From Bosea sp. 685 (GTDB lineage: Bacteria; Pseudomonadota; Alphaproteobacteria; Rhizobiales; Beijerinckiaceae), in assembly GCF_031884435.1 (NCBI RefSeq), contig NZ_CP134779.1, positions 2,232,001-2,296,000 of the forward strand: a DNA stretch of 64,000 nucleotides, read 5' to 3'. How positions within the stretch are numbered: position 1 is the stretch's first letter; the number at the start of each line of letters is the position of its first letter. Made by a program: the position numbers and the translations under genes. The notes below the pieces were generated by a model. That model saw only the letters and a list, made by a program, of their open reading frames with translations. It did not search any database and was not told where the DNA came from. Below are positions 34,260-61,927 of the stretch, piece after piece.

Positions 34260-34261
34260 AG

Positions 34262-44017: not shown

Positions 44018-44382
44018 AGCTCGGCCAGGCGGCCTGTCCGGAGCCTGGACAGCGCCTTGAGAGCTTGGCCCGAAACTCTACTCCGGAGGCCGTCGGACGC
44101 GGCTTTCTGCGCTTCCGGTGCTCACGGACATGAAGTCCGCTGTGCTCCGGTTCTCGAAATCCGCGCCAGCCGACTCACCGGAGCGAGTTTCGAAACAGGC
44201 TCTGAAAACTGCCTCCGGCTTGCGCAGAGGCTGACGTTTTTTAGGCGTTGACAAGCGATTTAGGGCTCTTCAAATTCATAAGTACACAAATGAATATGCC
44301 GGCTGACGCAGCGGCGTCGGCATGCGACATCTGTCAACGAGCATCGGGGCGTTTCGCCACCGGGCCAGAACGGGGAACAGCG
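44018..44382. promoter_or_regulatory. Liv operon upstream region with promoter and operator-like palindrome
   Basis: TTGACA (44248-44253) is followed after 17 bp by CAAATT (44271-44276). The imperfect palindrome at 44275-44294 (TTCAT...ATGAA) shares 15 of 20 positions with the sequence before the ferredoxin-reductase operon (57226-57245). The first 200 bp contain only GC-rich inverted segments around CTCCGG. This suggests control by the MarR protein encoded at 57.3 kb. Confidence 0.55.
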
Positions 44383-45600
44383 ATGACGATCGACCGTCGG
44401 TCACTTCTAGCCGGCGCCTCCGCCGGCGCTGCCTTGATCGCTGCGCCCGCCCTGGTGCGGGCACAGGGGGCAGGGCCCATCAAGGTGGGCGAGATCAACA
44501 GCTACACGGCGCAACCCGCCTTCCTGAAGCCCTATCGCCAGGGCTGGGAGCTGGCGCTGGAGCAGATCAATGCGGCGGGCGGCGCGCTCGGTCGCAAGAT
44601 CGAGACGATCTTCCGCGACGATGGCGGCAAGCCGGAAGACGCGGTGCGCCATGCCGGCGACCTGATCAACGCCGAGAAGGTCGATCTGCTCTCGGGCGGC
44701 TTCCTCTCCAATGTCGGGCTCGCGATCGCCGATTTCGCCGCCCAGAACAAGCGGCTCTATGTCGCGTCCGAGCCGCTTTCGGACGCCGTCGTCTGGGCCA
44801 AGGGCAACCGCTACACCTTCCGCCTGCGCCCCTCGACCTACATGCAGGCGGCGATGCTGGTCGAGGAAGCCGCCAAGCTCCCGGCCAAGAAATGGGCGCT
44901 GGTCGCGCCGAATTACGAATATGGCCAGTCCGGCGTGAAGTGGTTCAAGGAGCTGCTGAAGAAGGCCAAGCCCGATGTCGAGTTCGTCGCCGAGCAGTTC
45001 CCGGCGCTCGGCCGCATCGATGCGGGTGCGACCGTGCAGGCGCTGGAGGCCTCCAAGCCCGACGCGATCTTCAACGTCACCTTCGGCGCGGACCTTACGA
45101 ACTTCGTCCGCCAGGGCAATACGCGCGGATTGTTCGAGGGCAGGGCGGTCGTCTCGATGCTGACCGGCGAGCCTGAATATCTCGATCCGCTCGGCGCGGA
45201 AGCGCCTGTCGGCTGGATTGTCACCGGCTATCCCCATGCCGACATCCAGACGCCGGAGCATGTGAAGTTCCGCGACGCCTACAAGGCCAAGTTCAACGAC
45301 TACCCGCGCCTCGGTTCGGTCGTCGGCTTCGATACGATGAACTCGATCGCGGCCGGGCTCGCCAAGGCCGGCTCGACCGACACCGAGAAGCTGGTCGATG
45401 CGTTGAAAGGCCTGAAATTCCCCTCCGCCTTCGGCCAGGCCGAATATCGCGCCATCGACCACCAGTCGACGCTGGGCGCCTTTGTCGGCAAGACCGCGGT
45501 CAAGGACGGCAAGGGCGTGATGGTCGATTGGCGCTATGCCGACGGCGCGAAATACCTGCCAAGCGATGCCGAGGTGAAGACGCTGCGTCCGGCGGGGTAG
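44383..45600 (+). CDS. Branched-chain amino-acid-type ABC substrate-binding protein (LivK-like)
   Basis: 405 residues with a twin-arginine-like signal (MTIDRRSLLAGASAGAALIA, processed near VRAQ). It is a Leu/Ile/Val-binding-protein fold: IKVGEINSYTAQPAFLKPY, ETIFRDDGGKPEDAVRHA, DLLSGGFLSNVGLAIADFAA. GGGGAA precedes ATG 44383. Many such proteins bind aromatic or heterocyclic acids instead of amino acids. The neighbouring catabolic genes and shared operator suggest it imports their substrate. Confidence 0.92.
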   Translation: MTIDRRSLLAGASAGAALIAAPALVRAQGAGPIKVGEINSYTAQPAFLKPYRQGWELALEQINAAGGALGRKIETIFRDDGGKPEDAVRHAGDLINAEKVDLLSGGFLSNVGLAIADFAAQNKRLYVASEPLSDAVVWAKGNRYTFRLRPSTYMQAAMLVEEAAKLPAKKWALVAPNYEYGQSGVKWFKELLKKAKPDVEFVAEQFPALGRIDAGATVQALEASKPDAIFNVTFGADLTNFVRQGNTRGLFEGRAVVSMLTGEPEYLDPLGAEAPVGWIVTGYPHADIQTPEHVKFRDAYKAKFNDYPRLGSVVGFDTMNSIAAGLAKAGSTDTEKLVDALKGLKFPSAFGQAEYRAIDHQSTLGAFVGKTAVKDGKGVMVDWRYADGAKYLPSDAEVKTLRPAG

Positions 45601-45627
45601 TCGCTCTCTATTGCCGTATAACGTCCG

Positions 45628-45775: not shown

Positions 45776-45801
45776 CCCATTTTGTCTTGAGGTTCAGCTT
45801 C

Positions 45802-47691
45802 ATGATCGACCTCATCCTCACCCAGACGCTGAACGGGCTGGCCTCGGCCTCCTCGCTCTTTCTCGTTGCGTCGGGGCTGTCGATCATCTTCGGCGTCACG
45901 CGCATCGTGAATTTCGCGCATGGCTCGCTCTATATGCTGGGCGCCTATCTCGCCTGGACGCTCGTAAGCTATTTCGGCGCGGCGGAGCCGCTCGGCTTCT
46001 GGGGCGGCGTGCTGCTCGCGGCGCTCCTCGTCGGGCTCCTCGGCGTCGTGGTCGAGGTCCTGGTTCTGCGCCGGATCTACCAGGCGCCTGAGCTGTTCCA
46101 ATTGCTCGCGACCTTCGGCGTCGTGCTGATGCTGCAGGACCTGACGCTTGCGACCTGGGGGCCGGAGGACAAACTCGGGCCGCGCGCGCCGGGCCTCAAG
46201 AGCTTCGTCATCCTGTTCGACAACCGCTTCCCTACCTATGAGCTCTTCCTGATCGCGGTCGGGCCACTGGTGCTGCTCATCCTCTGGCTGCTGTTCCAGA
46301 AGACGCGCTGGGGCACGCTGGTGCGGGCTGCGACGCAGGACCGCGAGATGGTCGGCGCTCTCGGCGTCAACCAGCGCCTGCTCTTCACCTCGGTCTTCGC
46401 CTTCGGCTCGATGCTGGCAGGTCTTGGCGGCGCGCTGCAGCTCCCGCGCGAGGCGGTCAACCTGCATATGGACCTGTCGATGATTTCGGAGGTCTTCGTG
46501 GTCGTGGTCGTCGGCGGCCTGGGCAGCGTGACGGGGGCTTATCTCGCCGCCGTGCTGATCGGCATCCTGCACGCCTTCGGCATCCTGATCTTCCCCAAGA
46601 TCACGCTGGTGCTGGTCTTCCTGGTGATGGCGGTGGTCCTGGTGGTCAAGCCCTATGGCTTGATGGGCAAGGCGCCGATCGGCGGGGCGCGCGGCCATGG
46701 TCCAGCCGAGCCGCTGCTGCTGCCGGCCGACAAGCTGACCAAGCTTGCCGGCCTGGTCGCGCTCCTGCTGCTCGTGCTCGCGCCGCTGGTCGCGCCAGAC
46801 CATATCCTGCTGACGCTGACCGAACTCGTGATCTTCGCGCTCTTCGCCGCCTCGCTTCATTTCATGATGGGGCCCGGCGGCATGGCCTCCTTCGGCCACG
46901 CCGCCTATTTCGGGCTCGGCGCTTATGGCGCGGCGCTGGCGGTGAAATGGTTGGGCGCTTCGATGGAGCCAGCCCTGATCTTCGCGCCGTTCCTGGCGGG
47001 TATCGCCGGCGTCGTCTTCGGCTGGTTCTGCGTGCGCCTCTCGGGCGTCTATCTCGCCATGCTGACGCTCGCCTTCGCACAGATCGCCTGGGCGACCGCC
47101 TTCCAATGGGTCGAGCTGACCGGTGGCGACAACGGCATTCTCGGCGTCTGGCCTTCGGCCTGGGCCGTCTCGAAAACCGGCTTCTACTACCTTACGCTCG
47201 GCGTCTGCGTGCTCTCGATCCTCGCCTTGCGCCTGACGATCTTCTCGCCGCTCGGCTATGCCTTGCGGGCCGGGCGCGACAACCCGCTGCGGGCCGAGGC
47301 GATCGGCCTCGACGTGATGCGCATCCAATGGGTCGCCTTCGCGGTCGCGGCCTTTGCCGCGGGCATCGCGGGTGCGCTCTTCGCCTTCTTCAAGGGCTCG
47401 GTCTTCCCGACCTATATGGCGATCCCGCGCTCGGTCGATGCTTTGCTGATGGTGCTGCTCGGCGGCGTGCAGACCGTGGCGGGTCCGGTCATCGGCGCCT
47501 TCGCCTATGCCGGCCTGAGCGAGCAATTGATGAAGGCGACGATGTATTGGCGCTTCGGGCTCGGGCTCTCGATCGTGCTGCTCGTCATCCTGTTCCCGCG
47601 CGGGCTGGTCGGCGCGTCGCTGATGCTGCGCGAGCGCTGGACGAGGCGGCCTGAGCCTGCTGCCCGGCTGGCAGTGGAGGGCGGGCGATGA
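45802..47691 (+). CDS. Fused LivH-LivM permease
   Basis: 629 residues. Residues 1 to about 295 are LivH-like (GLSIIFGVTRIVNFAHGSLY, VVVVVGGLGSVTGAYLAAVL). Residues about 315-629 are LivM-like (GPGGMASFGHAAYFGLGAYG, RAGRDNPLRAEAIGLDV, LMVLLGGVQTVAGPVIGAF). The two are normally separate genes. ATG 45802 has GAGG 9 nt upstream. Its stop overlaps livG by 4 bp. One polypeptide would supply both membrane subunits. Confidence 0.93.
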   Translation: MIDLILTQTLNGLASASSLFLVASGLSIIFGVTRIVNFAHGSLYMLGAYLAWTLVSYFGAAEPLGFWGGVLLAALLVGLLGVVVEVLVLRRIYQAPELFQLLATFGVVLMLQDLTLATWGPEDKLGPRAPGLKSFVILFDNRFPTYELFLIAVGPLVLLILWLLFQKTRWGTLVRAATQDREMVGALGVNQRLLFTSVFAFGSMLAGLGGALQLPREAVNLHMDLSMISEVFVVVVVGGLGSVTGAYLAAVLIGILHAFGILIFPKITLVLVFLVMAVVLVVKPYGLMGKAPIGGARGHGPAEPLLLPADKLTKLAGLVALLLLVLAPLVAPDHILLTLTELVIFALFAASLHFMMGPGGMASFGHAAYFGLGAYGAALAVKWLGASMEPALIFAPFLAGIAGVVFGWFCVRLSGVYLAMLTLAFAQIAWATAFQWVELTGGDNGILGVWPSAWAVSKTGFYYLTLGVCVLSILALRLTIFSPLGYALRAGRDNPLRAEAIGLDVMRIQWVAFAVAAFAAGIAGALFAFFKGSVFPTYMAIPRSVDALLMVLLGGVQTVAGPVIGAFAYAGLSEQLMKATMYWRFGLGLSIVLLVILFPRGLVGASLMLRERWTRRPEPAARLAVEGGR

Positions 47692-48494
47692 ACGCGGTCC
47701 CGCAGCTGCAGGCGGCGATTCCCGCCGCGACGCCAGGTCCGGTCCTGGTCGTGCGCGATCTGCAGAAATCCTTCGGCGGCGTGCGCGCGGTCGACGGCGT
47801 CTCCTTCTCCGTCCAGGCCGGTACGATGCTGGCGCTGATCGGCCCCAATGGCGCGGGCAAGACGACCTGCTTCAACATGCTCAACGGCCAGCTCAGGCCC
47901 GATGGCGGCGAGGTTTTGCTGGCTGGGCGGCCGATCACCGGCATGAAGCCGCGCGCGGTCTGGCGCATGGGCGTCGGTCGCACCTTCCAGATCACCGCGA
48001 CCTTCACCTCGATGACCGTGCGCGAGAATGTCCAGATGGCGCTGATCTCCCATGCCGGGGGGATCTGGAGCCCGTTCGGGCGCGCCCGAGATCGCCATGT
48101 CGAGGCCGCCGATGCGTTGCTCGCCCAGGTCGGCATGCTGGAGCAGGCAGAGCGAGCCTGCGGCGTGCTCGCTTATGGCGATCTCAAGCGCGTCGAACTT
48201 GCGGTTGCGTTGGCCAACCAGCCGAAACTCCTGCTGATGGATGAGCCGACCGCCGGCATGGCGCCGCGCGAGCGTATCGAATTGATGGCACTGACCGCCG
48301 ATATCGCTGCCGCCAAAGGCATTGCCGTGCTTTTCACCGAGCACGACATGGATGTCGTCTTCACCCATTCCGACAGCGTCATCGTGCTCGATCGCGGCCG
48401 GCTGATCGCCCATGGCACAGCCGAGGAGGTGCGGCGCGACCCCAATGTCCGCGCCGTCTATCTCGGCTCCGGCGCGACTTCGGGAGGGCATTGA
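47688..48494 (+). CDS. ABC transporter ATP-binding protein (LivG-like)
   Basis: 268 residues. Walker A GPNGAGKTT, signature-like LAYGDLKRVELAVALA, Walker B LLLMDEPTAGM, switch His in FTEHDMD, with the LivG-type ending DPNVRAVYLG. It energises the importer with the LivF partner 1 bp downstream and is translationally coupled to the permease gene. The N-terminus carries about 20 extra residues before the domain. Confidence 0.95.
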   Translation: MNAVPQLQAAIPAATPGPVLVVRDLQKSFGGVRAVDGVSFSVQAGTMLALIGPNGAGKTTCFNMLNGQLRPDGGEVLLAGRPITGMKPRAVWRMGVGRTFQITATFTSMTVRENVQMALISHAGGIWSPFGRARDRHVEAADALLAQVGMLEQAERACGVLAYGDLKRVELAVALANQPKLLLMDEPTAGMAPRERIELMALTADIAAAKGIAVLFTEHDMDVVFTHSDSVIVLDRGRLIAHGTAEEVRRDPNVRAVYLGSGATSGGH

Positions 48495-48495
48495 G

Positions 48496-49206
48496 ATGAG
48501 TGCGCTACTCGAAATCGCCGGTCTCGACGCCTATTACGGCCGCGCTCATATCCTGCAGGGCCTCGGCTTCACGATGAATCGGGGCGAGGTGCTGGCGCTG
48601 ATGGGCCGCAACGGTGCCGGCAAATCGACCACGATGAAAGCGATCATGGGCCTGGTGCCTCCAACTGGGGGGACCGTGACCTTCGAGGGGCGGGCGATTC
48701 AGGGGCGCGAGCCCTTCGAGATCGCGCGGCTCGGCATCGGCTATGTGCCGGAGGACCGGCGCGTCTTCTCCGAACTCAGCGTGATGGAGAACCTGTCGGT
48801 CGCGCAGCGTCCGGCGCGCTCTGACGCACCGCACTGGACGCCGGAGCGGCTGTTTGCGCTCTTCCCCAATCTCGGCCGCATGCGCGACCGGCCGGGCGGG
48901 GCGATGTCGGGTGGCGAGCAGCAGATGCTGACGATCGCGCGGACCCTGATGGGCAACCCCAAGCTCGTGCTGCTGGACGAACCGTCCGAGGGGCTGGCGC
49001 CGGTCATCATCGAGGAGATGGCCAAGACCATCCTGGCCTTGAAGGCGGAGGGGCTTTCGGTGCTGATCTCGGAGCAGAACCTCCACTTTGCCGGCAATGT
49101 CGCCGACCGCGCCGCGATCATCGAAAAGGGCATGATCCGCTTCACCGGCACGATGGATGAGCTGAAGGGCAATGAGGCGGTCAGGACGCAGTATCTGTCG
49201 GTGTAG
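48496..49206 (+). CDS. ABC transporter ATP-binding protein (LivF-like)
   Basis: 236 residues. It starts MSALLEIAGLDAYYGRAHIL, with Walker A GRNGAGKST, signature MSGGEQQMLTIARTL, Walker B LVLLDEPSEGL and the LivF-typical VPEDRRVFSELSVMENL. GGGAGGG lies 10 nt before ATG 48496. It is the last gene of the Liv operon. Confidence 0.95.
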   Translation: MSALLEIAGLDAYYGRAHILQGLGFTMNRGEVLALMGRNGAGKSTTMKAIMGLVPPTGGTVTFEGRAIQGREPFEIARLGIGYVPEDRRVFSELSVMENLSVAQRPARSDAPHWTPERLFALFPNLGRMRDRPGGAMSGGEQQMLTIARTLMGNPKLVLLDEPSEGLAPVIIEEMAKTILALKAEGLSVLISEQNLHFAGNVADRAAIIEKGMIRFTGTMDELKGNEAVRTQYLSV

Positions 49207-49480: not shown

Positions 49481-50341
49481 TCATGACGGATTGGTCGCCC
49501 CACCCACGCTGCGCCATTCATCCGCCAGGGCCAGCAGGGCGCCCTCGATCAGCCCTTCGGACAGCAGCGTCTCAGCGACCCTGACGCCATTCCCCAGCGC
49601 CGTCGCCACTGCCGTGGGCGACAGCGGCCCCACTTCAACCGTCACCAATAACCCGCTGAGATCGCTGTCGGGATCGAGTTCCCGCGCCGGCCGCCGCAGG
49701 ATCGCCGCGTCCTTCACATCGACGGCGTTGGCGATGATGGTCGCGGCTGCATCGGCTTCGGCTGCCGAGCGCGCCAGCACGGTGACCGCGTCGGCGATGC
49801 CGAGCGAGAAGGAGCGCCCGCGCCAGCCGCTGGTCGCGACGCCCCGCGCCGGGCTTGCCGCATCGAGCCGCAGAAAACCCTCCGGCCGGGCGCGGGCGAG
49901 CGAGGGCACGACGCCGATGTCGAGCGGATGACCGGGCGTGACATGCAGCGCGATATCGCCGCCATTATTGACATAGGCGCGCTCGAGCCGGGGTTCGGCG
50001 GCGAGCATCGCGGTGAGGGCCGTATCGGCCACCGCGCCGGCGACCGCTGCCATCGGCGTGATGTATTGCGACCGGAAGGCCCAGCAGGCGCGCGCCATGC
50101 GTTGCGCGGTCGCACCTCTCAAGGAGGGTGGCTGGTGGTCGAGCGGCTGGCGCAGCAGGCGCAATTCGCCGGCGAGTTCGGTCAAAAGCCCGTCGAAGCG
50201 CGCCTCGGCTGCGGCATAGGCCCGCTCGACCCGCGGCTTGGGACCGAAGGCTGCGATGACGAGATCGCTCGGCCCCTCCTGCAGATGCAGCCGGTTGCCG
50301 GGCAGGCGGGAGACGCGATGGGTTTTCAATGAGGGGCGCAT
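49481..50341 (-). CDS. UPF0280 family protein (ApbE-like fold)
   Basis: 286 residues from ATG 50341; the frame continues to 50401 across a repeat element, so the inner start is preferred. Family-typical stretches are GPKPRVERAYAAAEARFDGL, SQYITPMAAVAGAVAD, RAYVNNGGDIALHV and VATSGWRGRSFSLGIADAVT. UPF0280 belongs to the ApbE-like superfamily, whose best-known members attach FMN covalently to proteins. It is the last gene of the leftward Mo-hydroxylase/reductase operon, so it may mature the reductase flavin. That role is inference. Confidence 0.85.
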   Translation of the reverse strand: MRPSLKTHRVSRLPGNRLHLQEGPSDLVIAAFGPKPRVERAYAAAEARFDGLLTELAGELRLLRQPLDHQPPSLRGATAQRMARACWAFRSQYITPMAAVAGAVADTALTAMLAAEPRLERAYVNNGGDIALHVTPGHPLDIGVVPSLARARPEGFLRLDAASPARGVATSGWRGRSFSLGIADAVTVLARSAAEADAAATIIANAVDVKDAAILRRPARELDPDSDLSGLLVTVEVGPLSPTAVATALGNGVRVAETLLSEGLIEGALLALADEWRSVGGATNPS

Positions 50342-50365
50342 GGTGACTTCATATGGAAACACCAT

Positions 50366-50494
50366 GTCATTCCGGACAAGCCGCGCCGATCCGGGATCCA
50401 TCGTAGAGCGTCATTCTCGGGCTTGTCCCGAGAATCTCGTGACCAGAGGGCTCTGGTTTACGAGATGGTCGGGTCAAGCCCGAGAATGACGCGC
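50366..50494. repeat. Composite intergenic repeat, left flank of catabolic cluster
   Basis: It starts GTCATTCCGGACAAGCCGCG. Positions 50406-50494 match 60436-60524 in the same orientation at 81 of 89 positions. It contains the hairpin ATTCTCGGG-N5-CCCGAGAAT. It lies between the UPF0280 and Hnr-like genes. Confidence 0.85.
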
Positions 50495-50525
50495 TCCGGC
50501 ATGGATTCCGGGTCTGCGTGAAGCG

Positions 50526-52058
50526 CTACCCCGCATCCCGCCTGAGCGGCCAGGGGTTCTCCGCTACCGCGCTCTCGATCCGCGCTTGCCCGCCATGGGC
50601 GCGCAAGATCTCTTCCATCGGGACGATCTCGTCGGCATGCCCACCCGAGGCCAGATAGAGCTCGCGCGGCAGGGTGAATTCGATCGGCGCGACGATGGCC
50701 GGCGTCGGCACATAGCCGAAGGCGTTTTTGGGCATGCGCAGCACATCGACCATCACGGTGATGCCGCCGCCCGGCCAGACATAGACCGGTGCGCCGCCCA
50801 TCGTGACCCGCGTCGTGCCTGATTGAACCGAGCGCGTCAGCAGCACGGGGTTTTCGGTGACACCCGCCCGCAAGCTGCCGCCGGCGCCGGCCATGAAGGT
50901 GACCGTGCAGAGCGAGGGCTCGCAATTTTCGCCGATGCGCTCGACGACCTGCCGCACGGCAGCCGGCATCTCGGCTTCGACGGGCAGCAAGTTCTCGTCG
51001 AGCACGCAGTAGAGCGAATCCTCGCCGGTGGTCGATGTCATCAAGAGGCGCATGCCGGGCCAGGCGAGGGCTGCGTCGATCTTCTGGATGATCGAGAGCG
51101 GTTCGGTGATGTCGGTGCCGCCCCAGCCGAGCCCGGGTTGTGCGACCTGGAAATAGCGACCAGGCGTCGATTTGCGCCCGCGCACGCGAATGCCGGCGGG
51201 CTTCATGTCGAGCACGCGGCCGGCCTGATGCTCGGTCAGCACGCCGGTGATGTGGTCGTCGACGACGATGACCTCGTCGACATGACCCTGCCACTGCTTG
51301 GCGAAGATGCCGATGGTGGCCGAGCCGCAGCCGACGCGCATGCGCGTCTCCGGCTTGCCGTCGACGATCGGCGCGTGGCCGGCCTGCACGATCACGCCAT
51401 GGCCGCCATCGATGGTCAGCTCGACCGCCTCGCCATTGCTGAGCTTCAGCATCGCCTCGCAGGTGGCGTTGCCTTCCTTCTTGGAACCGCCGGTGAGGTG
51501 GCGCACGCCGCCGAGCGAGAGCATCTGCGAACCGTATTCGGCCGTGGTGACATGGCCGACCTGCTCGCCATTGGCTCGCACGGCCGCCGTCTCCGGGCCG
51601 AGATGGCGGTCGGTGTCGATCTTCACCTTGACGCCGCAATACGAAAAGATGCCCTCGGTCACGACCGTGACGGTGTCGACCCCCTCATGCTGCGAGGAGA
51701 CGATGAAGGGGGCGGGCTTGTAGTCGGGATAGGTCGTGCCCGAGCCGATGCCGGTGACGAAAGTGCGGTTCGCCGGCAGGATCTTGCCGTCCCAATCCTC
51801 GGCATTCTCAGCAAACGGCACGACAGGACCGCCAAGCTCGACAGCCTCCGCCAGCAGCACGACCGGGTCGGTGCGGATCAGCAGCCCGTTGTCATTGGCA
51901 TAGCGCGAGCAGGCGCCGGAGCGGCCGGGGCGAATGCGGCACAGGACCGGGCAAGCGTCGCAGCGGACGATGCCTTCGCTGCCTTCTGAGGCGCCAAATT
52001 TGCGCGAGCGCTCGGCGAGAGCCGCATCCGCTGCGGGAACGGGGTTGAGTTCGTTCAC
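50526..52058 (-). CDS. 6-hydroxynicotinate reductase-like Fe-S protein
   Basis: 510 residues. A cysteine cluster at Cys33, 36, 40 and 50 (CDACPVLC...GAC) could hold an Fe-S cluster. The body has VTGIGSGTTYPDYKPAPFIV, VTEGIFSYCGVKVKID, MRVGCGSATIGIFAKQW and PGGGITVMVDVLRMP, which I recognise as resembling the Hnr protein of Eubacterium barkeri nicotinate fermentation. Hnr reduces 6-hydroxynicotinate to the tetrahydro-6-oxo compound. GTG 52058 overlaps the Mo-subunit stop by 4 bp and has GAGGAGA upstream. Reductant could come from the ferredoxin in the same operon. Confidence 0.78.
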   Translation of the reverse strand: MNELNPVPAADAALAERSRKFGASEGSEGIVRCDACPVLCRIRPGRSGACSRYANDNGLLIRTDPVVLLAEAVELGGPVVPFAENAEDWDGKILPANRTFVTGIGSGTTYPDYKPAPFIVSSQHEGVDTVTVVTEGIFSYCGVKVKIDTDRHLGPETAAVRANGEQVGHVTTAEYGSQMLSLGGVRHLTGGSKKEGNATCEAMLKLSNGEAVELTIDGGHGVIVQAGHAPIVDGKPETRMRVGCGSATIGIFAKQWQGHVDEVIVVDDHITGVLTEHQAGRVLDMKPAGIRVRGRKSTPGRYFQVAQPGLGWGGTDITEPLSIIQKIDAALAWPGMRLLMTSTTGEDSLYCVLDENLLPVEAEMPAAVRQVVERIGENCEPSLCTVTFMAGAGGSLRAGVTENPVLLTRSVQSGTTRVTMGGAPVYVWPGGGITVMVDVLRMPKNAFGYVPTPAIVAPIEFTLPRELYLASGGHADEIVPMEEILRAHGGQARIESAVAENPWPLRRDAG

Positions 52059-54856
52059 GGCTGAGTCTCCTCGCCAATATCGTTCGCCCGCAGCAATTCC
52101 CACAAACGATGCGGCAGCACCGGGACCTGCCGGGGCGTCACGCCGGTGGCGTGGCGGATCGCGCCGAGGATGGCTGGGGCGGTCGGCACCAAAGCCGGCT
52201 CGCCGATGCCCTTGGCGCCGGAGGGGCCGAGCGGCTCGGCGTCCTCGACCAGGATGATGTCGATCGGCGGTACATCGCCGGCGGTCGGGATCAGGTAATC
52301 GTGCAGATTCTCGGTGCGGCCGGGCAGGTATTCCTCCAGCAGCGCGAGTCCAATGCCCTGGGCGATGCCGCCATGGATCTGGCCTTCGACCAGCATCGGG
52401 TTGACCGCGCGGCCGACGTCATGGGCCGCGACGATGCGGTTGAGCTTGATCGTGCCGAGATCGAGATCGACGTCGAGCGAGGCGATCTGCGCCGCAAAAC
52501 CATAGGTGGCGTAAGGGATGCCCTGGCCTTTTTCGTCCAAGGGCACGGTCGGCGGGTCGAAGCTCCCGATGCCCTCCAGTACGATGCCATCGGCCTTGGC
52601 GGGAAGGGCGGCGAGGTCGATGCGCGCGATGACGCCATTCTCCTCGACCAGCAGCTGCGTGCCCGCGAGCTTCAGGGTCGCGGTCGGGCCCGCATTGGTC
52701 AGGCGCAGGATCTCGGCGCGCAGCGCGGCGGCGGCAGCCTCCGAGGCGCGACCGGAGACGAAGGTCTGGCGCGAGGCCGAGGTCTTGCCGGCGTCGAAGG
52801 TTTTGAAGGTGTCGCCGATGACCAGCGTGAAGGCCTCGACCGGCAGGCCAAGCGCGTCGGCCGCGATCTGGGTCAGCACCGTGGTCGAGCCCTGGCCGAT
52901 ATCGACCGCGCCGTTCCAGAAGGTGAGCCGGCCCGTGGTGTCGAGCGTGATTCGCATGGTCGAGGGGTTCGACATGCCGGTGTTGCCGATGCCGTACCAC
53001 ATGCAGCCGATGCCGACGCCGCGGCGCGTGCGGCCCTCGCTCTCATTGAAAGCGGCCGCATCCGCGAGCAGGGCTTGCCAGTGAGGTTTGAGCTTCTCCA
53101 GGCATTCGGCCAGGCCGGCGCTGGCCTGCAGGACCTGGCCGGTCGGTGTCGTGTCGCCGGCACGGATGGCGTTGATCAGGCGGAATTCCAGCCGGTCGAG
53201 GCCGGCAGCGGTGGCGAGATCGTCGAACAGGCTCTCCTGCGCGATCGCCGCCTGGGGCACGCCGAAGCCGCGAAACGCGCCTGCTGGCGGGCCGTTGGTG
53301 TAGACCGCGCGCGACAGGTTGCAGACATTGGGCACCTTGTAGGGGCCGGTCGCATGCACCGGCACGCGGCCTGCCACCGTCGGCCCCCAGGAGGAATAGG
53401 CGCCGGTGTCGAAATCGCCCTCCATGGCGAAGGCGACGAGATGGCCGGCCGCATCGCAGGCGGCCTTGGCCTCGATCGCGGAGGGGTGGCGCTTGGTCGA
53501 GGAGATCATCGATTCGATGCGGCTGAAGACGCAGCGCACCGGCTGGTCGAGGACCCAGGCCGCGACCGCCAGCATCGGCTGCAGCGAGACGTCGAGCTTG
53601 CCGCCGAAGCCGCCTCCGCAAGCCGAGGGGATGATGCGGACATCCTCGAGCTTCAGGCCGAGCACGCGGGCGACCTCGTCGCGGTCCATATAGGGCGCCT
53701 GGGTGCAGGCAAAAACCTCGATCGTGTCGCCGACGCGCCGGGCATAGCCGGCCTCGGGCTCGATATAGGCGTGCTCGACGAAGCCGGTCTCGAAGCTGCC
53801 TGCGGCGACATGAGCGGCCTGCGCGAAGCCGGCCTCGACATCGCCGCGCTCGACGCGGCCGCGCGTCAGCACATTGTCAGGCGCGAAGTCGTGCAGGATG
53901 AAGGCGCTCTCGCCCAGCGCCGCCTTGACGCCGACCATCGGCGGCAGCGCCTCCCAGGCAATCGGGAACTCGCTCAGCCTGATCGCCTCGACCGCATCCT
54001 TCTCGCCGACGATGGCGAGCACGCATTCGCCGCGATAGCGGGTTTCGCCGGTGGAGAAGACCGGCTGGTCCTTGAGATGCGGGTAGATGCCGAAGGAATT
54101 CTCGCCCGGCACATCCTTCGCGGTGAAGATGCGCACGAGGCCCGGGTGGCTTGCGATGAAGGCGTCGAGATCACCCAGGGTGAAACGCGCGCGGGGATGG
54201 GGGCTTCGCACGGCGCGCAGCCAGAGCGCGTCGACCGGCGCGGCATCGGCGCCATAGATCTCCGTACCGGCGACCTTCGGCTCGCCGTCGAGGCGGGGCA
54301 TGCGCGCGCCGACGGACGCACTGCTCGCGGCAGGCGCGATCGGAGCGGGCTCGATGAAAAGATGCGCGTCGCGCACGGCCTCGACGATCTTGAGATAGCC
54401 GGTGCAGCGGCAGAGCACGCCGCCGAGCGCATCCTGCGTCTCGGCCTCGTCGGGCTGCGGGTTGCGCTTGAGCAGATCATAGCCCGCCATCAGCATGCCG
54501 GGCGTGCAGATGCCGCATTGGGCCGCGCCATGCGCGTGGAACGCCTTCTGCAGGGCTGAGCCGAGCGCGTCCTTCGCCAGGCCTTCGACGGTGATGATCT
54601 CGCGGCCTTCCACTTGTCCGATCGGCGTCAGGCAGGCGCAGGCCTGTGCGCCGTCGATCAGGATCGTGCAGGCGCCGCAATCGCCGGCGTCGCAGCCGAT
54701 CTTGGTGCCGGTGGCGCTGAGGCTCCCGCGCAGCGCCTCGCTCAACCGGGTGTCGGGCGCGTCGCCCAGATGGACGTTGGCGCCGTTGAGCCGGAAGGCG
54801 ATGCCCTCAGTGGCCGGGGCCGAGGCGCTGAGGGTGGAGCGATCATGGACGTTCAC
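52055..54856 (-). CDS. Molybdenum hydroxylase, [2Fe-2S] domain fused to molybdopterin subunit
   Basis: 933 residues. Residues about 20-165 carry two [2Fe-2S] sites: GCDAGDCGACTILIDG with CACLTP, and CGICTPGML with CRCTGYLKI. The rest is a xanthine-oxidase-family Mo domain: ACGGGFGGKLDVSLQP, GAFRGFGVPQA, DIGQGSTTVLTQIA and EGQIHGGIAQGIGLALLEEY, with catalytic Glu in GAKGIGEPALVP. It hydroxylates an N-heterocycle next to nitrogen, using water oxygen. It overlaps the FAD subunit upstream and the Hnr-like gene downstream. The substrate, possibly nicotinate, is inferred from context. Confidence 0.92.
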   Translation of the reverse strand: MNVHDRSTLSASAPATEGIAFRLNGANVHLGDAPDTRLSEALRGSLSATGTKIGCDAGDCGACTILIDGAQACACLTPIGQVEGREIITVEGLAKDALGSALQKAFHAHGAAQCGICTPGMLMAGYDLLKRNPQPDEAETQDALGGVLCRCTGYLKIVEAVRDAHLFIEPAPIAPAASSASVGARMPRLDGEPKVAGTEIYGADAAPVDALWLRAVRSPHPRARFTLGDLDAFIASHPGLVRIFTAKDVPGENSFGIYPHLKDQPVFSTGETRYRGECVLAIVGEKDAVEAIRLSEFPIAWEALPPMVGVKAALGESAFILHDFAPDNVLTRGRVERGDVEAGFAQAAHVAAGSFETGFVEHAYIEPEAGYARRVGDTIEVFACTQAPYMDRDEVARVLGLKLEDVRIIPSACGGGFGGKLDVSLQPMLAVAAWVLDQPVRCVFSRIESMISSTKRHPSAIEAKAACDAAGHLVAFAMEGDFDTGAYSSWGPTVAGRVPVHATGPYKVPNVCNLSRAVYTNGPPAGAFRGFGVPQAAIAQESLFDDLATAAGLDRLEFRLINAIRAGDTTPTGQVLQASAGLAECLEKLKPHWQALLADAAAFNESEGRTRRGVGIGCMWYGIGNTGMSNPSTMRITLDTTGRLTFWNGAVDIGQGSTTVLTQIAADALGLPVEAFTLVIGDTFKTFDAGKTSASRQTFVSGRASEAAAAALRAEILRLTNAGPTATLKLAGTQLLVEENGVIARIDLAALPAKADGIVLEGIGSFDPPTVPLDEKGQGIPYATYGFAAQIASLDVDLDLGTIKLNRIVAAHDVGRAVNPMLVEGQIHGGIAQGIGLALLEEYLPGRTENLHDYLIPTAGDVPPIDIILVEDAEPLGPSGAKGIGEPALVPTAPAILGAIRHATGVTPRQVPVLPHRLWELLRANDIGEETQP

Positions 54857-55728
54857 GCGGCGACCTCCAGCGGCGAAGACAGCAAACCGGCGAGCGCGCG
54901 CCGCACCAGGACTAGCGCGGCGTCGCGGCGATAGGCGGCGCTGGCGCGGACATCGTCGATCGGCGATAGAGGCGCGAGATCGGAGGCACTGATGCTCTCG
55001 GCCAGCGCAGGCGAGGGCAACTGACCGAGCAGCCGGGCCTCAATCGCGCTCAATCGTTGCGGCGCGGCCGCGCAAGCTCCGACGGCGATGCGAAGCGAAG
55101 CGACGCGCCCCTGCTCATCCAAGGCGAGATTGATGGCGACGGAGGCGATCGAGATCACCAGATAGGCGCGCGCGCCGAGTTTTTTGAACGTCGAGCGTGC
55201 ATGCGCCGGCTGTGCCGGCACATGGATGGCGACCAGCAATTCATCGGGAGCAAGCGCGGTCTTGCGGTTCCCAAGCACGAATGAAGCGAGTGGCAATCGC
55301 CGACTTCCGCGGCGGCCGGCGAGTTCGACCTCGGCTTCCAATGCGAGCAGCGGCGGCACCCCGTCAGCGGCGGGCGAAGCGTTGCAGAGATTGCCGCCGA
55401 TCGTCGCCCGGTTCTGGATCTGGACGCCGCCGACCTGCCGGCTTGCCTGTTTTAAGGCGTCGAAGGCAGGCGGGACATCGGCCTGGGCGATCGCGCTCCA
55501 TGTCGCCATCGCGCCGATACGGATGCCGTCTGGGCCATGATCGATGCCGGCGAGCTCCGGGATGAGGCTGAGGTCGAGCAGATCGCGATTATGGGGCTCG
55601 AACCAGGCGGCGCGCTGGGTGCGGACGGGATAGACGTCGGTGCCGCCCGCCAGGGCAGTCAGCGGGCCGTCGCCGGCTCTGAGCGCCAGAGCCTCATCGA
55701 GTGTTCGGGGGCGAAGATAGCGCGTCAT
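54853..55728 (-). CDS. FAD-binding subunit of molybdenum hydroxylase
   Basis: 291 residues of the CoxM/XdhB type. FAD-binding motifs are ALAGGTDVYPVRTQ and NRATIGGNLCNASPAADGVP, followed by the C-terminal CO-dehydrogenase flavoprotein domain (FKKLGARAYLVISIASVAIN). It passes electrons from the Fe-S centres of the fused partner to NAD or another acceptor. It starts 30 nt after the ferredoxin stop and overlaps the Mo-subunit ATG by 4 bp. Confidence 0.93.
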   Translation of the reverse strand: MTRYLRPRTLDEALALRAGDGPLTALAGGTDVYPVRTQRAAWFEPHNRDLLDLSLIPELAGIDHGPDGIRIGAMATWSAIAQADVPPAFDALKQASRQVGGVQIQNRATIGGNLCNASPAADGVPPLLALEAEVELAGRRGSRRLPLASFVLGNRKTALAPDELLVAIHVPAQPAHARSTFKKLGARAYLVISIASVAINLALDEQGRVASLRIAVGACAAAPQRLSAIEARLLGQLPSPALAESISASDLAPLSPIDDVRASAAYRRDAALVLVRRALAGLLSSPLEVAA

Positions 55729-55757
55729 GACCGTCTGCTCCTCGTCAGCGTGCTCTC

Positions 55758-57223
<1,466 letters not shown>

Positions 57224-57225
57224 TT

Positions 57226-57245
57226 ATTGTTAGTATACAAATGAA
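57226..57245. promoter_or_regulatory. Candidate MarR operator before ferredoxin-reductase operon
   Basis: ATTGTTAGTATACAAATGAA. Its first 14 bases match 57885-57898 upstream of the enamidase gene at 12 of 14 positions, and the whole shares 15 of 20 with the Liv site at 44275-44294. It overlaps a TATACT -10-like element on the minus strand. Confidence 0.6.
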
Positions 57246-57260
57246 ATTGCGCAAGCGGAT

Positions 57261-57301
57261 TTTGCAGGCAGACCTTGCTCATTTGCAGGCAGGTCTTGCT
57301 C
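57261..57301. repeat. 20-bp tandem direct repeat
   Basis: Copies 57261-57280 and 57282-57301 (TTTGCAGGCAGACCTTGCTC and the same with AC to GT) differ at two positions and are separated by one base. They lie between the MarR stop codon and the reductase operon promoter. Confidence 0.9.
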
Positions 57302-57806
57302 AATCGAGGCGCGCCAGCAGAGCGAGCAGGCGCTCGGCCTCTTCGCGCGAGAGCGGCGCCAAGGTCGCGGCGGTGATCGCCTTCGCCTTCTCGAGCAGGC
57401 CGGGAATCGCCTCGTGCCCCTTGGCGCTGAGCCGGACGCGAACGCGGCGCTGATCGTCGGGATCGGGCAGGCGCTCGACCAGCCCGCGCTCTTCCAGCCG
57501 CGCGATTACGCCCTTGATGGTGGCGGGGTCCATCGCCGTCATGCGGCCGAGCAGATTCTGCGAAATCTCCTCGCCAGCGCTCAGTTTCGACATGGCGGCG
57601 AATTGCGTCGGCGTCGGGCCGTCATCGCCCATGATGCGCTGGAAGATCGAGATATGGCGCTGCTGGGCGCGGCGCATCAGGAAGCCGACCTGTTCGTCGA
57701 GGATATAGCCCATGGGTGCGGCGGTGCTGGCCGAGGACGGCTTGCGCTGCCTTGCGGTCGGCTTGGCGGCTGTGTCGGCCACGCTGTCCTGCCTGCTCAT
57801 CCTCAT
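57300..57806 (-). CDS. MarR-family regulator of the catabolic cluster
   Basis: 168 residues. Winged helix: ISQNLLGRMTAMDPATIKGV then wing GLVERLPDPDDQRRVRVRLS, with dimer helices on either side. The N-terminal 30 residues are Ser/Ala/Lys-rich and disordered. It lies between the reductase operon and the divergent enamidase operon, each with a related operator-like sequence. In Pseudomonas putida the MarR protein NicR senses 6-hydroxynicotinate; a similar role here is inference. Confidence 0.9.
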   Translation of the reverse strand: MRMSRQDSVADTAAKPTARQRKPSSASTAAPMGYILDEQVGFLMRRAQQRHISIFQRIMGDDGPTPTQFAAMSKLSAGEEISQNLLGRMTAMDPATIKGVIARLEERGLVERLPDPDDQRRVRVRLSAKGHEAIPGLLEKAKAITAATLAPLSREEAERLLALLARLD

Positions 57807-57884
57807 CCCCTGATCGCCGCCGCGCGGACCGCGCCGCCGGCCCTATCGCATCGCCTCTTGCCAGCCGCCGAAACGCTGTCCATG

Positions 57885-57898
57885 ATTGTTATTACACA
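57885..57898. promoter_or_regulatory. Candidate MarR operator before enamidase operon
   Basis: ATTGTTATTACACA shares 12 of 14 positions with 57226-57239. It lies in the divergent gap between marR (start 57806) and the enamidase ATG (57958), where a repressor could control both. Confidence 0.55.
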
Positions 57899-57957
57899 TT
57901 CAAACATCGCCTGTCTCGCAGGCATGATTGCGCTCCATATTGGCAGCGGAGGACCAG

Positions 57958-59154
57958 ATGGCTCACGACGTCGCGGCAGGCCCGGCCAAAGGCAAGCTCG
58001 TCATCCGCAATCTCGGCCTGGTGCTCTCGGGCGATCTCAACCAGCCGATCCTCGACGCCGATACGATCATCGCGGCCGATGGCCGCATCACGGCCATCGG
58101 CCGGGCTGCCGATCTCGATTGCGAGCGCGCCGACAGCATCATCGATGCGCAGGGATCGCCCGTTGCGCCCGGGCTGATCGACAGCCATTGCCACCCGGTC
58201 TTCGGCGACTGGACGCCGCGGCAGGGGCAAATGGGCTGGATCGATTCCTGCGTCAATGGCGGCGTCACCACCTTCGTTTCCGCAGGCGAAGTGCATCTGC
58301 CCGGCCGGCCGAAGGATCCCATCGGCGTCAAGGCACTCGCCATCACGGCGCAACGTACCTTCGCGAATTTCCGGCCGACCGGGGCGAAGATTCACGCCGG
58401 CGCGCCGATTGCCGAGACCAGCATGGTCGAGGAGGATTATGCCGAGATGGCCCGCGCCGGGGTCAAGATGATCGGCGAGATCGGGCTCGGCACCGTCAAC
58501 ACCGGGCCTGAGGCGAAGAAACATGTCGATTGGGCGCGCAAATACGGAATGGAGACGATCATCCATACCGGCGGGCCCTCGATCGCCGGTTCGAGCCTGA
58601 TCAGCGAGGATATCGTGCTGGAGGCCCAGCCCGATGTGATCAGTCACATCAATGGCGGCCATACCTCGATCCGCTTTTCCGGCATCTGCAGGCTCTGCGA
58701 GCAGGCGAGGGGCGCAATCGAGATCGTCCATAACGGCAATGAGCGCGCCGCGCTCGAAGCCATCAAGACCGCCACCGAACTCAACCTGACCTACAAGGTC
58801 ATCCTCGGCACGGACGCACCGGCGGGTTCCGGCGTGCAGCCGCTCGGTATCCTCAGGATGATCGCCTTCCTGTCGAGCCTCGGCGACGTGCCGCCCGAGG
58901 TCGCCTTCTGCATGGCGACCGGCAACACGGCGCGGGTGCGCAAGCTCGATGCCGGCTTCATCGCGGTCGGGATGCCGGCCGATCTCGTCTTTCTCGACAA
59001 GCCGCAGCACTCGGCCGGAAAGCATCTGCTCGACGCCGTCTCGCTCGGCGACATTCCAGGCATCGGCATGGTGGTGATCGACGGCATCATCCGCACCGGC
59101 CGCTCGCGCAACACGCCGCCATCACACACCGCGCCCGTTCTGGTCGGGCATTGA
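57958..59154 (+). CDS. Enamidase-like amidohydrolase
   Basis: 398 residues of the amidohydrolase superfamily. Metal residues are visible: His77 and His79 (DSHCHP), Glu174 (GEIGLGT), His203 (IIHTGG), His230 (ISHINGG) and Asp286 (LGTDAPAG). The overall pattern, including HLPGRPKDPIGVKALAIT and ending SRNTPP, strongly resembles E. barkeri enamidase. That enzyme opens 1,4,5,6-tetrahydro-6-oxonicotinate to 2-formylglutarate plus ammonia. GGAGGA lies just before ATG 57958. First of a three-gene rightward operon. Confidence 0.87.
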   Translation: MAHDVAAGPAKGKLVIRNLGLVLSGDLNQPILDADTIIAADGRITAIGRAADLDCERADSIIDAQGSPVAPGLIDSHCHPVFGDWTPRQGQMGWIDSCVNGGVTTFVSAGEVHLPGRPKDPIGVKALAITAQRTFANFRPTGAKIHAGAPIAETSMVEEDYAEMARAGVKMIGEIGLGTVNTGPEAKKHVDWARKYGMETIIHTGGPSIAGSSLISEDIVLEAQPDVISHINGGHTSIRFSGICRLCEQARGAIEIVHNGNERAALEAIKTATELNLTYKVILGTDAPAGSGVQPLGILRMIAFLSSLGDVPPEVAFCMATGNTARVRKLDAGFIAVGMPADLVFLDKPQHSAGKHLLDAVSLGDIPGIGMVVIDGIIRTGRSRNTPPSHTAPVLVGH

Positions 59155-59162
59155 GGCGCATC

Positions 59163-59750
59163 ATGACCGATCTCATCGATATCCGTCGGGTCCAGACCAG
59201 CGTGGAGGAGATCTTCCACGAGTTCGGCCCGCGCCCCGGCCGCACGGAGCGCATCGCTTGCGTCTGCGCCGTGCTGACCAATCCTTATGCCGGGCGCTAC
59301 GAGCCCGACATCCTGCCGATGATGGAGGCACTGAAGGCTGCCGGCCTCGACATGGCGACGCGTTGCCTCAACGCGCTCGGCGGCGATCCCGCGACCGTCG
59401 AGGGCTATGGCAAGGGCGCAATCGTCGGCTCCGCCGGGGAGCTGGAGCATGGCGCGCTCTGGCATGTGCCCGGCGGCTACGCCATGCGCGAAATTCTCGG
59501 CAATGCGAAAGCGATCGTGCCCTCGACCAAGAAGGTGGCGGGGCCGGGCGCGCGCATCGACATTCCCGTCACCCATATCAACGCGTCTTATGTCCGCAGC
59601 CATTTCGGCGCGGTCGAGATCGGCGTTCCCGGCTCGCCGCAAGCGGACGAACTGGTCTTCATCCTGGTGATGACGACGGGCGCGCGCATCCATGAGCGCG
59701 TCGGCGGCCTGCGCGCCGATCAGATCAGCGTTGGCGACGGGCAGCGCTAG
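59163..59750 (+). CDS. PF06684 (DUF1185, amino acid synthesis family) protein, copy 1
   Basis: 195 residues. Family-conserved blocks are LTNPYAGRYEPDI, GYGKGAIVGSAGELEHGA, IVPSTKKVAGPGARIDIPV and THINASYVRSHFGAVEIGVP. Reported structures of the family show a chorismate-mutase-like fold; the biochemical function is not established to my knowledge. ATG 59163 has GAGG 8 nt upstream. It follows the enamidase gene by 8 bp. The adjacent second copy suggests a heteromer. A pathway role after ring opening is plausible. Confidence 0.88.
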   Translation: MTDLIDIRRVQTSVEEIFHEFGPRPGRTERIACVCAVLTNPYAGRYEPDILPMMEALKAAGLDMATRCLNALGGDPATVEGYGKGAIVGSAGELEHGALWHVPGGYAMREILGNAKAIVPSTKKVAGPGARIDIPVTHINASYVRSHFGAVEIGVPGSPQADELVFILVMTTGARIHERVGGLRADQISVGDGQR

Positions 59751-59783
59751 AGGCCCTGTCTTTTACCAAACCGAGGACGAGAC

Positions 59784-60368
59784 ATGCCCGCAGACATCCG
59801 CAAGATCTTGACGCAAGTCGATGAAATCCATATCGAAATGGGCAAGACGGTCAGCCCGCCGACGCGGCGCGCCGTGGCCTGCGCCGTGATCGCCAATCCC
59901 TTCGCCGGGCGCTATCAGGAAGACCTTTCGGAGCTGACCGAGATCGGCGTCGAGCTCGGCGATCTCCTGACCAAGCGCTGCCTTGCAGCACTGAACATCG
60001 CGCCCGATCAGGCCGAGAGTTTCGGCAAGGCGGCGATCGTCGGCGAGGGCGGCGAGCTGGAGCATGCAGCCGCCATCCTCCATCCTAAGCTCGGCACCCC
60101 GGTGCGTGCGGCACTCGGCAAGGGGCCGGCGCTGATCCCCTCGGCCAAGAAGCGCGGCGGGCTCGGCACGCCGATCGACGTGCCGCTCGGCCACAAGGAC
60201 GCAGCCTTCGTGCGCTCGCATTTCGATGCGGTCGAGGTCCGGATCACCGACGCGCCGCGCGCCGGCGAGATTTTGGTCGCGATCGCGATCACCGATTCCG
60301 GCCGCCCGCTGCCGCGCATCGGCGGCTTGCAGAAGCACGAGATCAAGGGCGAAGACGGGCTGCGCTGA
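59784..60368 (+). CDS. PF06684 (DUF1185, amino acid synthesis family) protein, copy 2
   Basis: 194 residues, paralogous to copy 1: IANPFAGRYQEDL, SFGKAAIVGEGGELEHAAA, LIPSAKKRGGLGTPIDVPL and DAAFVRSHFDAVEVRI. GAGGACGAGA precedes the ATG. The two copies keep the same invariant Lys, Glu-His and Arg-Ser-His residues, so both may be catalytic. Last gene of the enamidase operon, followed by a repeat and the convergent oxidoreductase gene. Confidence 0.88.
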   Translation: MPADIRKILTQVDEIHIEMGKTVSPPTRRAVACAVIANPFAGRYQEDLSELTEIGVELGDLLTKRCLAALNIAPDQAESFGKAAIVGEGGELEHAAAILHPKLGTPVRAALGKGPALIPSAKKRGGLGTPIDVPLGHKDAAFVRSHFDAVEVRITDAPRAGEILVAIAITDSGRPLPRIGGLQKHEIKGEDGLR

Positions 60369-60592: not shown

Positions 60593-61894
60593 TCAGGCCG
60601 CCGTGTTCTTCATCCCGCCATCGGTCAGCCGGTACCAGCTGATGATCGCCGAGACGTAGAGCTCGTTCAGCGCGTGCAGCGGCAGCGGCTTGATCGGCAC
60701 CACGGGGAAGGGCAGGCGGCTCTTGTCGCCGCTGGCGAGATACTCCGCCATCGCCTTGCCCATCGCGCTCTGCAGGCCGACGCCGCGGCCCATGCAGCCG
60801 ATATCGACCAGCAGCCCGGGCTCGGGCTCGTGGAGATGCGGCAGGAAATCGCGCGTCAGCGCGACCCGGCCGCACCAGCGATAGTCGAAGCCGATCCCCT
60901 TGGCCTGCGGATACATCTTGCCGATGACGCGTTCGAGATGGGCCCAGTCGGAGGCGTCCTTCGGTTCCCGGAAGGGGCCGCGGCCGCCCATCAGGAGGCG
61001 ATTGGTGTGGTCCTTGCGGAAGTAGAGCAGCAATTGCCGCGTATCCGAGGTGACCTGGCCCTCGGGCAGGATCGTGCCGGCGATGTTGTCCGAGAGCGGC
61101 TCGGTCGCGACGATGAAGGTGTTCGGCCGGATCACGGTCTGGCGCAGTTTTGGGATCAGGTCGCCGGTATAGCCATTGGTCGCGACGACGACGCGCGGCG
61201 CGGTGACGCTCCCGCCCTGGGCGGTGCGGACGACCCAGGTCTCGCCTTGGCGCTTCAGCGAGACGACGGGGCTCTTGCCATGGATCGTGGCGCCAGCCTT
61301 GAGCGCGGCCTTGGCTAAGCCGCGCGCATAGGCGAGTGGCTGCACGCCGCCGGCGCGCCGGTCGATCCAGCCGCCGAGATAGCGTTCCGTGCCGAGCAGG
61401 CGCGCGACGCTGTCGCTGTCGAGATACTCCGCATCGACACCGCGCGCCCGCCATTCACCGGCGCGGCGCTTCACCGTCTCGAGCATGGCTGGCGTATGCG
61501 CGCCCTGGATCCAGCCGGCGCGCTTATGCGGCACGTCCATGCCGTGCTTGGCGATCAGATCGAAGACGAGATCGGCGGTCGAGCCGACGAAGCGCGTCAG
61601 CGCCTCGCCCGCGACGGGGCCGAATTTCGCGGCGATCTCGCTGGGATCATATTTGATGCCGGGAATGACCTGCCCGCCATTGCGGCCCGAGCCGCCCCAG
61701 CCCGGCTCATGCGCCTCCAGTACGATGACGGAGACGCCGGCCTCGGCGAGATGGAGCGCGGTCGAGAGTCCGGCATAGCCGGCGCCGATCACGCAGACAT
61801 CGGCGCTGGCGTCAGAGGCGAGCGGCGGTGTCGGAGCGGCGGCGGGCGCCGTCGCATGCCAGAGCGAGGGAGCGAGCGGGAACGGTTCGGCCAT
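60593..61894 (-). CDS. FAD-dependent oxidoreductase (DadA/PuuB-like)
   Basis: 433 residues. N-terminal FAD dinucleotide motif VCVIGAGYAGLSTALHLAEA, then GGSGRNGGQVIPGIKY as in glutamylputrescine-oxidase-like proteins, and C-terminal GCMGRGVGLQSAMGKAMAEY. It probably oxidises an amine or amino acid at the membrane or with oxygen. AAGGAGG lies 5 nt before ATG 61894. It is on the same strand as, and downstream of, a polar amino-acid ABC transporter, so the transported compound may be its substrate. Confidence 0.9.
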   Translation of the reverse strand: MAEPFPLAPSLWHATAPAAAPTPPLASDASADVCVIGAGYAGLSTALHLAEAGVSVIVLEAHEPGWGGSGRNGGQVIPGIKYDPSEIAAKFGPVAGEALTRFVGSTADLVFDLIAKHGMDVPHKRAGWIQGAHTPAMLETVKRRAGEWRARGVDAEYLDSDSVARLLGTERYLGGWIDRRAGGVQPLAYARGLAKAALKAGATIHGKSPVVSLKRQGETWVVRTAQGGSVTAPRVVVATNGYTGDLIPKLRQTVIRPNTFIVATEPLSDNIAGTILPEGQVTSDTRQLLLYFRKDHTNRLLMGGRGPFREPKDASDWAHLERVIGKMYPQAKGIGFDYRWCGRVALTRDFLPHLHEPEPGLLVDIGCMGRGVGLQSAMGKAMAEYLASGDKSRLPFPVVPIKPLPLHALNELYVSAIISWYRLTDGGMKNTAA

Positions 61895-61927
61895 GACGGC
61901 CTCCTTGGGCGTTGAAAGCATGGCTCA

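Follow-up and report, generated by a model that had tools for sequence, protein, structure and literature searches.

A probable oxidative-then-reductive pyridine-carboxylate cluster in Bosea sp. 685 and the exchange of hydroxylases and ring openers around Hnr and UPF0280 in its relatives

In Bosea sp. 685 a group of genes was found that combines a molybdenum (Mo) hydroxylase, a reductase resembling 6-hydroxynicotinate reductase (Hnr) and an enamidase, and the question raised by this locus is which compound such a set of enzymes would degrade in a host that is presumed to be aerobic. The window, which is the whole stretch of DNA that was analysed, comprises 64,000 nucleotides (contig NZ_CP134779.1, positions 2,232,001 to 2,296,000). 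A sequence-only reading of it had assigned hydroxylation, ring reduction and enamide hydrolysis to these genes, which are the right steps for these families. Our comparison of sequences indicates that the cluster probably specifies an aerobic oxidative-then-reductive pathway for a pyridine carboxylate, the most likely one being nicotinate.

The finding is real and right in outline, but its kind is already known. A cluster conserved among A. caulinodans ORS571, B. japonicum USDA110, R. palustris HaA2 and strain SG-6C is presented by Shettigar 2012 (PMC3511419), in the part of that paper available to us; it comprises the enzymes of the first three steps of the 1,4,5,6-tetrahydro-6-oxonicotinate (THON) route, an ATP-binding cassette (ABC) transporter and two unknown proteins that are likewise conserved. 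Because the same cluster is described there in relatives, the window cluster is a member of this published kind: Hnr, the enamidase, the ABC transporter and the unknown conserved proteins are all matched, the last of these being, as we take it, UPF0280 and PF06684. The earlier interpretation thus stands for the three steps and not as a discovery, and the window holds a variant with another Mo-hydroxylase and another electron chain.

All the genes that had been named between 49481 and 60368 were recovered at their positions and with their identities by open reading frame (ORF) and family scans, the family scan taking in the 20 ORFs between 42275 and 63220. That range holds the core genes, but its outer limit was too narrow, as the Liv-type transporter at 44248-49206 also belongs. 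Relatives were counted in the named loci of the best 80 of 329 confirmed Hnr matches, a set that leans to near relatives. The cluster genes are open, tightly packed reading frames:

44248..45600, plus strand: Liv-type ABC substrate-binding protein, probable substrate uptake (PF13458, 7.1e-69; relative in 40 of 80 Hnr loci)
45787..47691, plus strand: Liv-type permease, a single 634-aa protein with two PF02653 stretches (relative in 45 of 80 loci)
47688..48494, plus strand: Liv-type ATPase, LivG-like (PF00005 and PF12399)
48412..49206, plus strand: Liv-type ATPase, LivF-like (PF00005), its true start possibly downstream of 48412
49481..50401, minus strand: UPF0280 / COG2122 protein with the ApbE fold (NF003322, 361 bits, above cut-off)
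50526..52058, minus strand: Hnr-like reductase (hnr), named from public annotation of the family, with a GTG start and an N-terminal CxxCxxxCx9C motif
52055..54856, minus strand: Mo-hydroxylase, fused [2Fe-2S] and molybdopterin subunit, moL (PF02738, PF20256, PF01799, PF01315)
54853..55728, minus strand: Mo-hydroxylase flavin adenine dinucleotide (FAD) subunit, moF (PF00941, PF03450)
55758..56075, minus strand: [2Fe-2S] ferredoxin, fdx, proposed electron donor to Hnr (PF00111)
56072..57223, minus strand: thioredoxin-reductase-like flavoprotein without CxxC, fnr, proposed NADPH:ferredoxin reductase (PF07992; TIGR01292 below cut-off)
57300..57806, minus strand: MarR-family regulator, divergent from the enamidase operon (PF01047)
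57958..59154, plus strand: enamidase (amidohydrolase), matching 2VUN
59151..59750, plus strand: PF06684 paralogue 1, aa1, BB2672-type (PF06684, 1e-65)
59784..60368, plus strand: PF06684 paralogue 2, aa2, SPO0826-type (PF06684, 2.3e-72)

The minus-strand catabolic genes span from MarR (57806) to UPF0280 (49481), and the plus-strand genes start at 57958 with the enamidase, followed by the two PF06684 genes. Overlaps of 4 bases were observed for hnr/moL, moL/moF and fdx/fnr. The Liv transporter, which converges on the minus-strand genes, was counted in the cluster because it is conserved beside Hnr in relatives. Only one Hnr gene is held by the 6.8 Mb genome. Since UPF0280 was found in 77 of the 80 loci and a Mo subunit of the window type (at least 50% identity to the window protein) in 67, the grouping of these genes is not due to chance.

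The amidohydrolase is, by its sequence, a true relative of enamidase, as had been proposed. It matches the Eubacterium barkeri enamidase 2VUN over its full length (query residues 13-392, 2.3e-110, 372 bits), whereas the second-best solved structure gave only 30 bits, and no unrelated family fitted better. The stretches HxH, GE-GLGT, HTGG, SHINGG and DAP are retained; such stretches carry metal ligands in amidohydrolases generally.

Neither Pfam nor NCBIfam gave a match to the Hnr-like protein at E<=0.001. Its name is based on public annotation, since 17 of the 26 plasmid records that match give the family the name 6-hydroxynicotinate reductase, and on the homologue of the Bradyrhizobiaceae strain SG-6C, for which the available part of PMC3511419 gives 42% identity to E. 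barkeri Hnr. The window protein is 64-98% identical to 58 aligned relatives, with Cys33, 36, 40, 50, 200, 244 and 379 invariant, and its closest named relative among the best 80 of the 329 matches is from Bosea psychrotolerans (98% identity). Its AlphaFold2 model, of moderate confidence (pLDDT 76.9), gave no clear match to a known fold. A weak but consistent likeness to the C-terminal barrel of the glycine-cleavage T-protein was seen in residues 141-229.

Nicotinate fermentation in E. barkeri reportedly employs Ndh, Hnr and Ena (the work is said to be that of Alhapel in 2006), and its later steps consist of 2-formylglutarate reduction, a dehydratase and a B12 mutase. The window resembles this system in having a hydroxylase with FAD, iron-sulfur (FeS) and Mo parts, Hnr and enamidase, and differs from it by the addition of the PF06684, UPF0280 and Liv genes and by the presumed aerobic host. 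Families of the later E. barkeri steps had been said to be absent, and none was indeed found among the 20 ORFs scanned (42275-63220), the remaining genome not being searched. In Azorhizobium the later route is said, after Kitts in 1992, to proceed by decarboxylation and oxidation to glutarate and glutaryl-CoA. To our knowledge the gene basis of this aerobic type of pathway is only partly assigned.

We hypothesize that the substrate would be taken up by the Liv-type transporter and that the FAD/[2Fe-2S]/Mo hydroxylase would put a hydroxyl group on C6, giving 6-hydroxynicotinate. Electrons would then pass from NADPH through the thioredoxin-reductase-like protein and the ferredoxin to Hnr, which would reduce the ring to THON. 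The enamidase would hydrolyse THON to 2-formylglutarate and ammonia, and decarboxylation and oxidation could lead to glutarate in the Azorhizobium style. UPF0280 would probably mature Hnr, and the likely place of action of the two PF06684 proteins is at the ring-opening product or later. This proposal for the reactions, substrate, electron path and regulation is built upon the gene identities, conservation, co-occurrence and module exchange that were observed.

The substrate had been left open by the sequence-only reading. This doubt stays, yet nicotinate is favoured because hydroxylase and opener modules exchange on one Hnr-UPF0280 core. The window encodes the fused FeS/Mo type of hydroxylase with its FAD subunit, and a ferredoxin with a thioredoxin-reductase-like protein, whereas loci of Bradyrhizobium, Xanthobacter and Rhodopseudomonas in our set (not the loci of the published study) have a Mo subunit fused to cytochrome c domains, here called MoCyt, and mostly a plant-type ferredoxin-NADP reductase. 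Likewise, Hnr clusters without enamidase (loci L035-L043, for instance) can have an alternative opener related to caprolactamase CapAB, 5-oxoprolinase and N-methylhydantoinase (HyuAB), which is not in the window.

Ten plasmid loci, picked for variety from the 26 records that match Hnr, were examined along with the 80 named loci (numbers with L denote loci). The window type was found with enamidase in 16 of the 80 (also in plasmid loci L118 and L120) and with HyuA/HyuB in 28 (also in plasmid loci L114, L119 and L122). MoCyt occurs with enamidase in 7 of the 80 (also L121) and with HyuAB in none of them, yet this last combination is present in plasmid loci L116, L117 and L123, the MoCyt pair of L116 being annotated nicA/nicB. 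Openers accompanied by neither hydroxylase were found in 1 (enamidase) and 2 (HyuA/B) of the 80 loci, and plasmid locus L115 has HyuAB with no hydroxylase seen. Both openers together were observed in 0/80 named and 0/10 plasmid loci. Sulfitobacter pontiacus (L120) has enamidase whereas Sagittula and Pseudosulfitobacter (L119, L122) have HyuAB, the remaining gene set being common to the three: plant-type reductase, hydroxylase, hnr, UPF0280, both PF06684 genes, Rieske oxygenase, Liv and MarR.

The same picture was obtained with 190 sampled alphaproteobacterial genomes (numbers with G), which are related and so not independent. Hnr (E<1e-100) was found in 28 of them, and UPF0280 (E<1e-30) in exactly the same 28. 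Weak matches were left out of the counts (Hnr in G096, 6.4e-4; UPF0280 in G099, G109, G121 and G143; PF06684 in G056), and among the genomes counted hnr is split over two frames in G028 and has one internal stop in G080. The window-type Mo subunit is present in 27 of the 28.

These 28 genomes split into 10 with an enamidase orthologue and 18 with a caprolactamase-like HyuA, taking orthologues at 60% identity or more, a cut chosen after the hits were known. With fixed margins and independence assumed, the probability of this split is 7.6e-8, a value to be read together with the post hoc cut and the relatedness of the genomes. The next matches under the cut are at 42% for enamidase and 58% for HyuA (G182, without Hnr). 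HyuA paralogues of 42-49% exist in the enamidase genomes G000, G001, G065 and G148, and enamidase-like matches of 39-42% in G064 and G104, both counted as Hyu. In 8/10 enamidase and 12/18 HyuA genomes, hnr and the opener share a contig and are no more than 25 kb apart; in the others the opener is farther away or on another contig. Opener orthologues were also found in genomes lacking Hnr, namely enamidase in G082 and HyuA in G114 and G127 (partial). G082 itself contains enamidase (63%), a Mo subunit (53%) and PF06684 without a Hnr or UPF0280 match, which may point to another reductase or to decay of the pathway.

With undetermined loci excluded and L031 (cut by a contig end) grouped with the window as enamidase, 7 opener changes are required on the Hnr tree, and well-supported branches force at least 4 of them; the clade of the window and a Hyu clade are sisters. 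The opener has therefore been swapped several times, which argues against mere descent. The HyuA and HyuB proteins that were tested gave their best scores with caprolactamase models (1e-149 and 2.5e-91, below cut-offs), which fits with an ATP-dependent opening of a lactam. In view of this repeated and exclusive exchange on one core, enamidase and HyuAB would be expected to act on the same reduced lactam, and the exchange of both hydroxylases leads to the expectation that both make the same hydroxypyridine. We infer that the two openers open the same reduced ring and that the Bosea hydroxylase, the proposed nicotinate 6-hydroxylase, produces 6-hydroxynicotinate, this exchange being our principal ground for assigning nicotinate to it. 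No earlier description of the Hnr/UPF0280 co-occurrence, the opener split or the module swaps was found in the open-licence collection of papers that was searched, outside which most subscription papers and preprints fall.

The electron supply varies as well. The pair of ferredoxin and thioredoxin-reductase-like protein of the window is common to 3/80 loci, and a plant-type ferredoxin-NADP reductase (NF008178, below cut-off) is found instead in 9/24 enamidase loci, 1/30 Hyu loci and 8/10 plasmid loci. This looks like another replacement and would be compatible with NADPH as the donor.

Several observations weigh against this nicotinate reading. No opener was seen in 26 of the 80 loci (23 of window type, 2 MoCyt, 1 with neither), some of which are at contig ends and some of which have full flanks. 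In the window-type Mo subunit the catalytic-region motifs GGGFGGKLD (or close) and GAFRGFG hardly vary between enamidase and Hyu loci, which speaks for the nicotinate reading; columns 465, 540 and 544, outside the motifs, differ in composition between the groups, and this might reflect a difference in substrate. Moreover, the best solved relatives of the Mo-hydroxylase are the aldehyde oxidoreductases 1DGJ and 1SIJ, so that sequence alone does not indicate nicotinate. Finally, a homologue with 43% identity to the Mo part of MoCyt is encoded in the same genome (C2:1440178, the best such match), and therefore a different enzyme could produce 6-hydroxynicotinate.

The role of UPF0280 has to be weighed separately. 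Its AlphaFold2 model (pLDDT 90.8) matched DVU1097 (2O34) and the flavin transferases ApbE, Ftp and FmnB with a Foldseek probability of 1.00. E. barkeri Hnr reportedly bears a covalent flavin, as Alhapel is said to have found in 2006. From this fold and this flavin we propose that UPF0280 flavinylates Hnr; that it matures Hnr is probable, though we are less sure of this than of the shared ring and of the hydroxylase. The alternative, in line with the part suggested for COG2122 in making homocysteine, is that UPF0280 works on sulfur or persulfide, and this must be regarded as a considerable possibility. A profile alignment (hhalign) with five ApbE sequences from relatives (probability 57.5, E 1e-4) is limited to 98 columns in the later part, with the ATSG and ADAxAT motifs aligned and the SHTMDP segment gapped; this segment and the N-terminal part of ApbE were not matched in that alignment. 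According to the part of PMC5764234 available to us, the similarity of COG2122 to ApbE stops short of the flavin-binding region, and COG2122 is given its role in homocysteine synthesis with DUF39. Nevertheless DUF39 (PF01837) was found in 0/190 alphaproteobacterial genomes, 3/14 control genomes being positive, so the homocysteine role is unlikely here, and the fold matches of UPF0280 include flavin transferases.

The two PF06684 proteins pair with two solved structures, aa2 with SPO0826/2QTP (1.4e-81) and aa1 with BB2672/3BYQ (5.1e-62). The family is present in 26 of the 28 Hnr genomes and in 11 genomes without Hnr. In the portion of the structure paper that was accessible, genes of a branched-chain-amino-acid-type ABC transporter (SPO0822-0825) adjoin SPO0826, an arrangement that resembles the Liv genes of the Hnr clusters. 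The homologue TgnF is reported, in a source likewise seen in part, to stimulate succinate-semialdehyde oxidation in trigonelline breakdown. We suggest, with low confidence, that the PF06684 proteins act on the ring-opened formyl acid.

We are tempted to suggest a modular pathway with a fixed Hnr-UPF0280 core, two nicotinate hydroxylases, two non-homologous openers acting on a THON-type lactam, UPF0280 attaching the flavin of Hnr and PF06684 proteins of the 2QTP/3BYQ types processing the ring-opened product, although it is somewhat doubtful that all these parts hold jointly. Three orphan families (UPF0280, PF06684 and Hnr, which has no recognised domain family) would thereby be tied to one widespread catabolic route, seen in 28/190 genomes. 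It should be interesting to evaluate whether HyuAB opens THON with ATP, whether UPF0280 flavinylates Hnr and which Mo-hydroxylase yields 6-hydroxynicotinate.

The main competing reading, which we consider rather unlikely, is that in some or all of the clusters the same three reactions are directed to another pyridine, such as picolinate, an N-methylpyridinium compound (trigonelline or homarine, for example) or a substituted nicotinate. The window Mo-hydroxylase is unlike the MoCyt type of the Bradyrhizobium and Xanthobacter loci, and marine bacteria are reported to have a pathway for homarine. A Rieske oxygenase, found in enamidase and HyuAB clusters alike (L058, L064, L108, L119, L120, L122), might act as an N- or O-demethylase that supplies the pathway; among solved structures the L119 protein is closest to dicamba O-demethylase. 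However, no Rieske family was detected among the ORFs scanned between 42275 and 63220, and each Mo-hydroxylase type is found with each opener around one Hnr-UPF0280 core. Furthermore, the window enamidase is 62-63% identical to those of the MoCyt loci (L092, L095, L100, L101, L103, L107, L109, L121), and the window Hnr 67-70% identical to those of L092, L095, L100 and L101.

Nicotinate is retained as the favoured substrate. An unrelated function, for instance in cyclic-amide or amino-acid metabolism with a mere resemblance to Hnr and enamidase, is very improbable, for although PF06684 bears the name amino acid synthesis, Hnr belongs to no Pfam family and Liv transporters usually carry amino acids, the match to 2VUN far exceeds the next one, the Hnr/UPF0280 co-occurrence is exact, the openers partition the Hnr genomes, and the published cluster, as far as its account was available, gives the same context.

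Next to the cluster, the minus-strand gene at 60593-61921 encodes an FAD-dependent oxidoreductase whose best score was with the L-pipecolate oxidase AmaA (355 bits; cut-off 600), and it is adjoined by an amino-acid-type ABC ATPase (61964-63220). As a relative of this oxidoreductase was found in only 1/80 Hnr loci, it is probably a separate unit. Elsewhere in the window, positions 22630-40560 are likely to be a polysaccharide locus, with an ABC ATPase, a HlyD-type protein, several glycosyltransferases, two polysaccharide pyruvyl transferases and a GSCFA protein.

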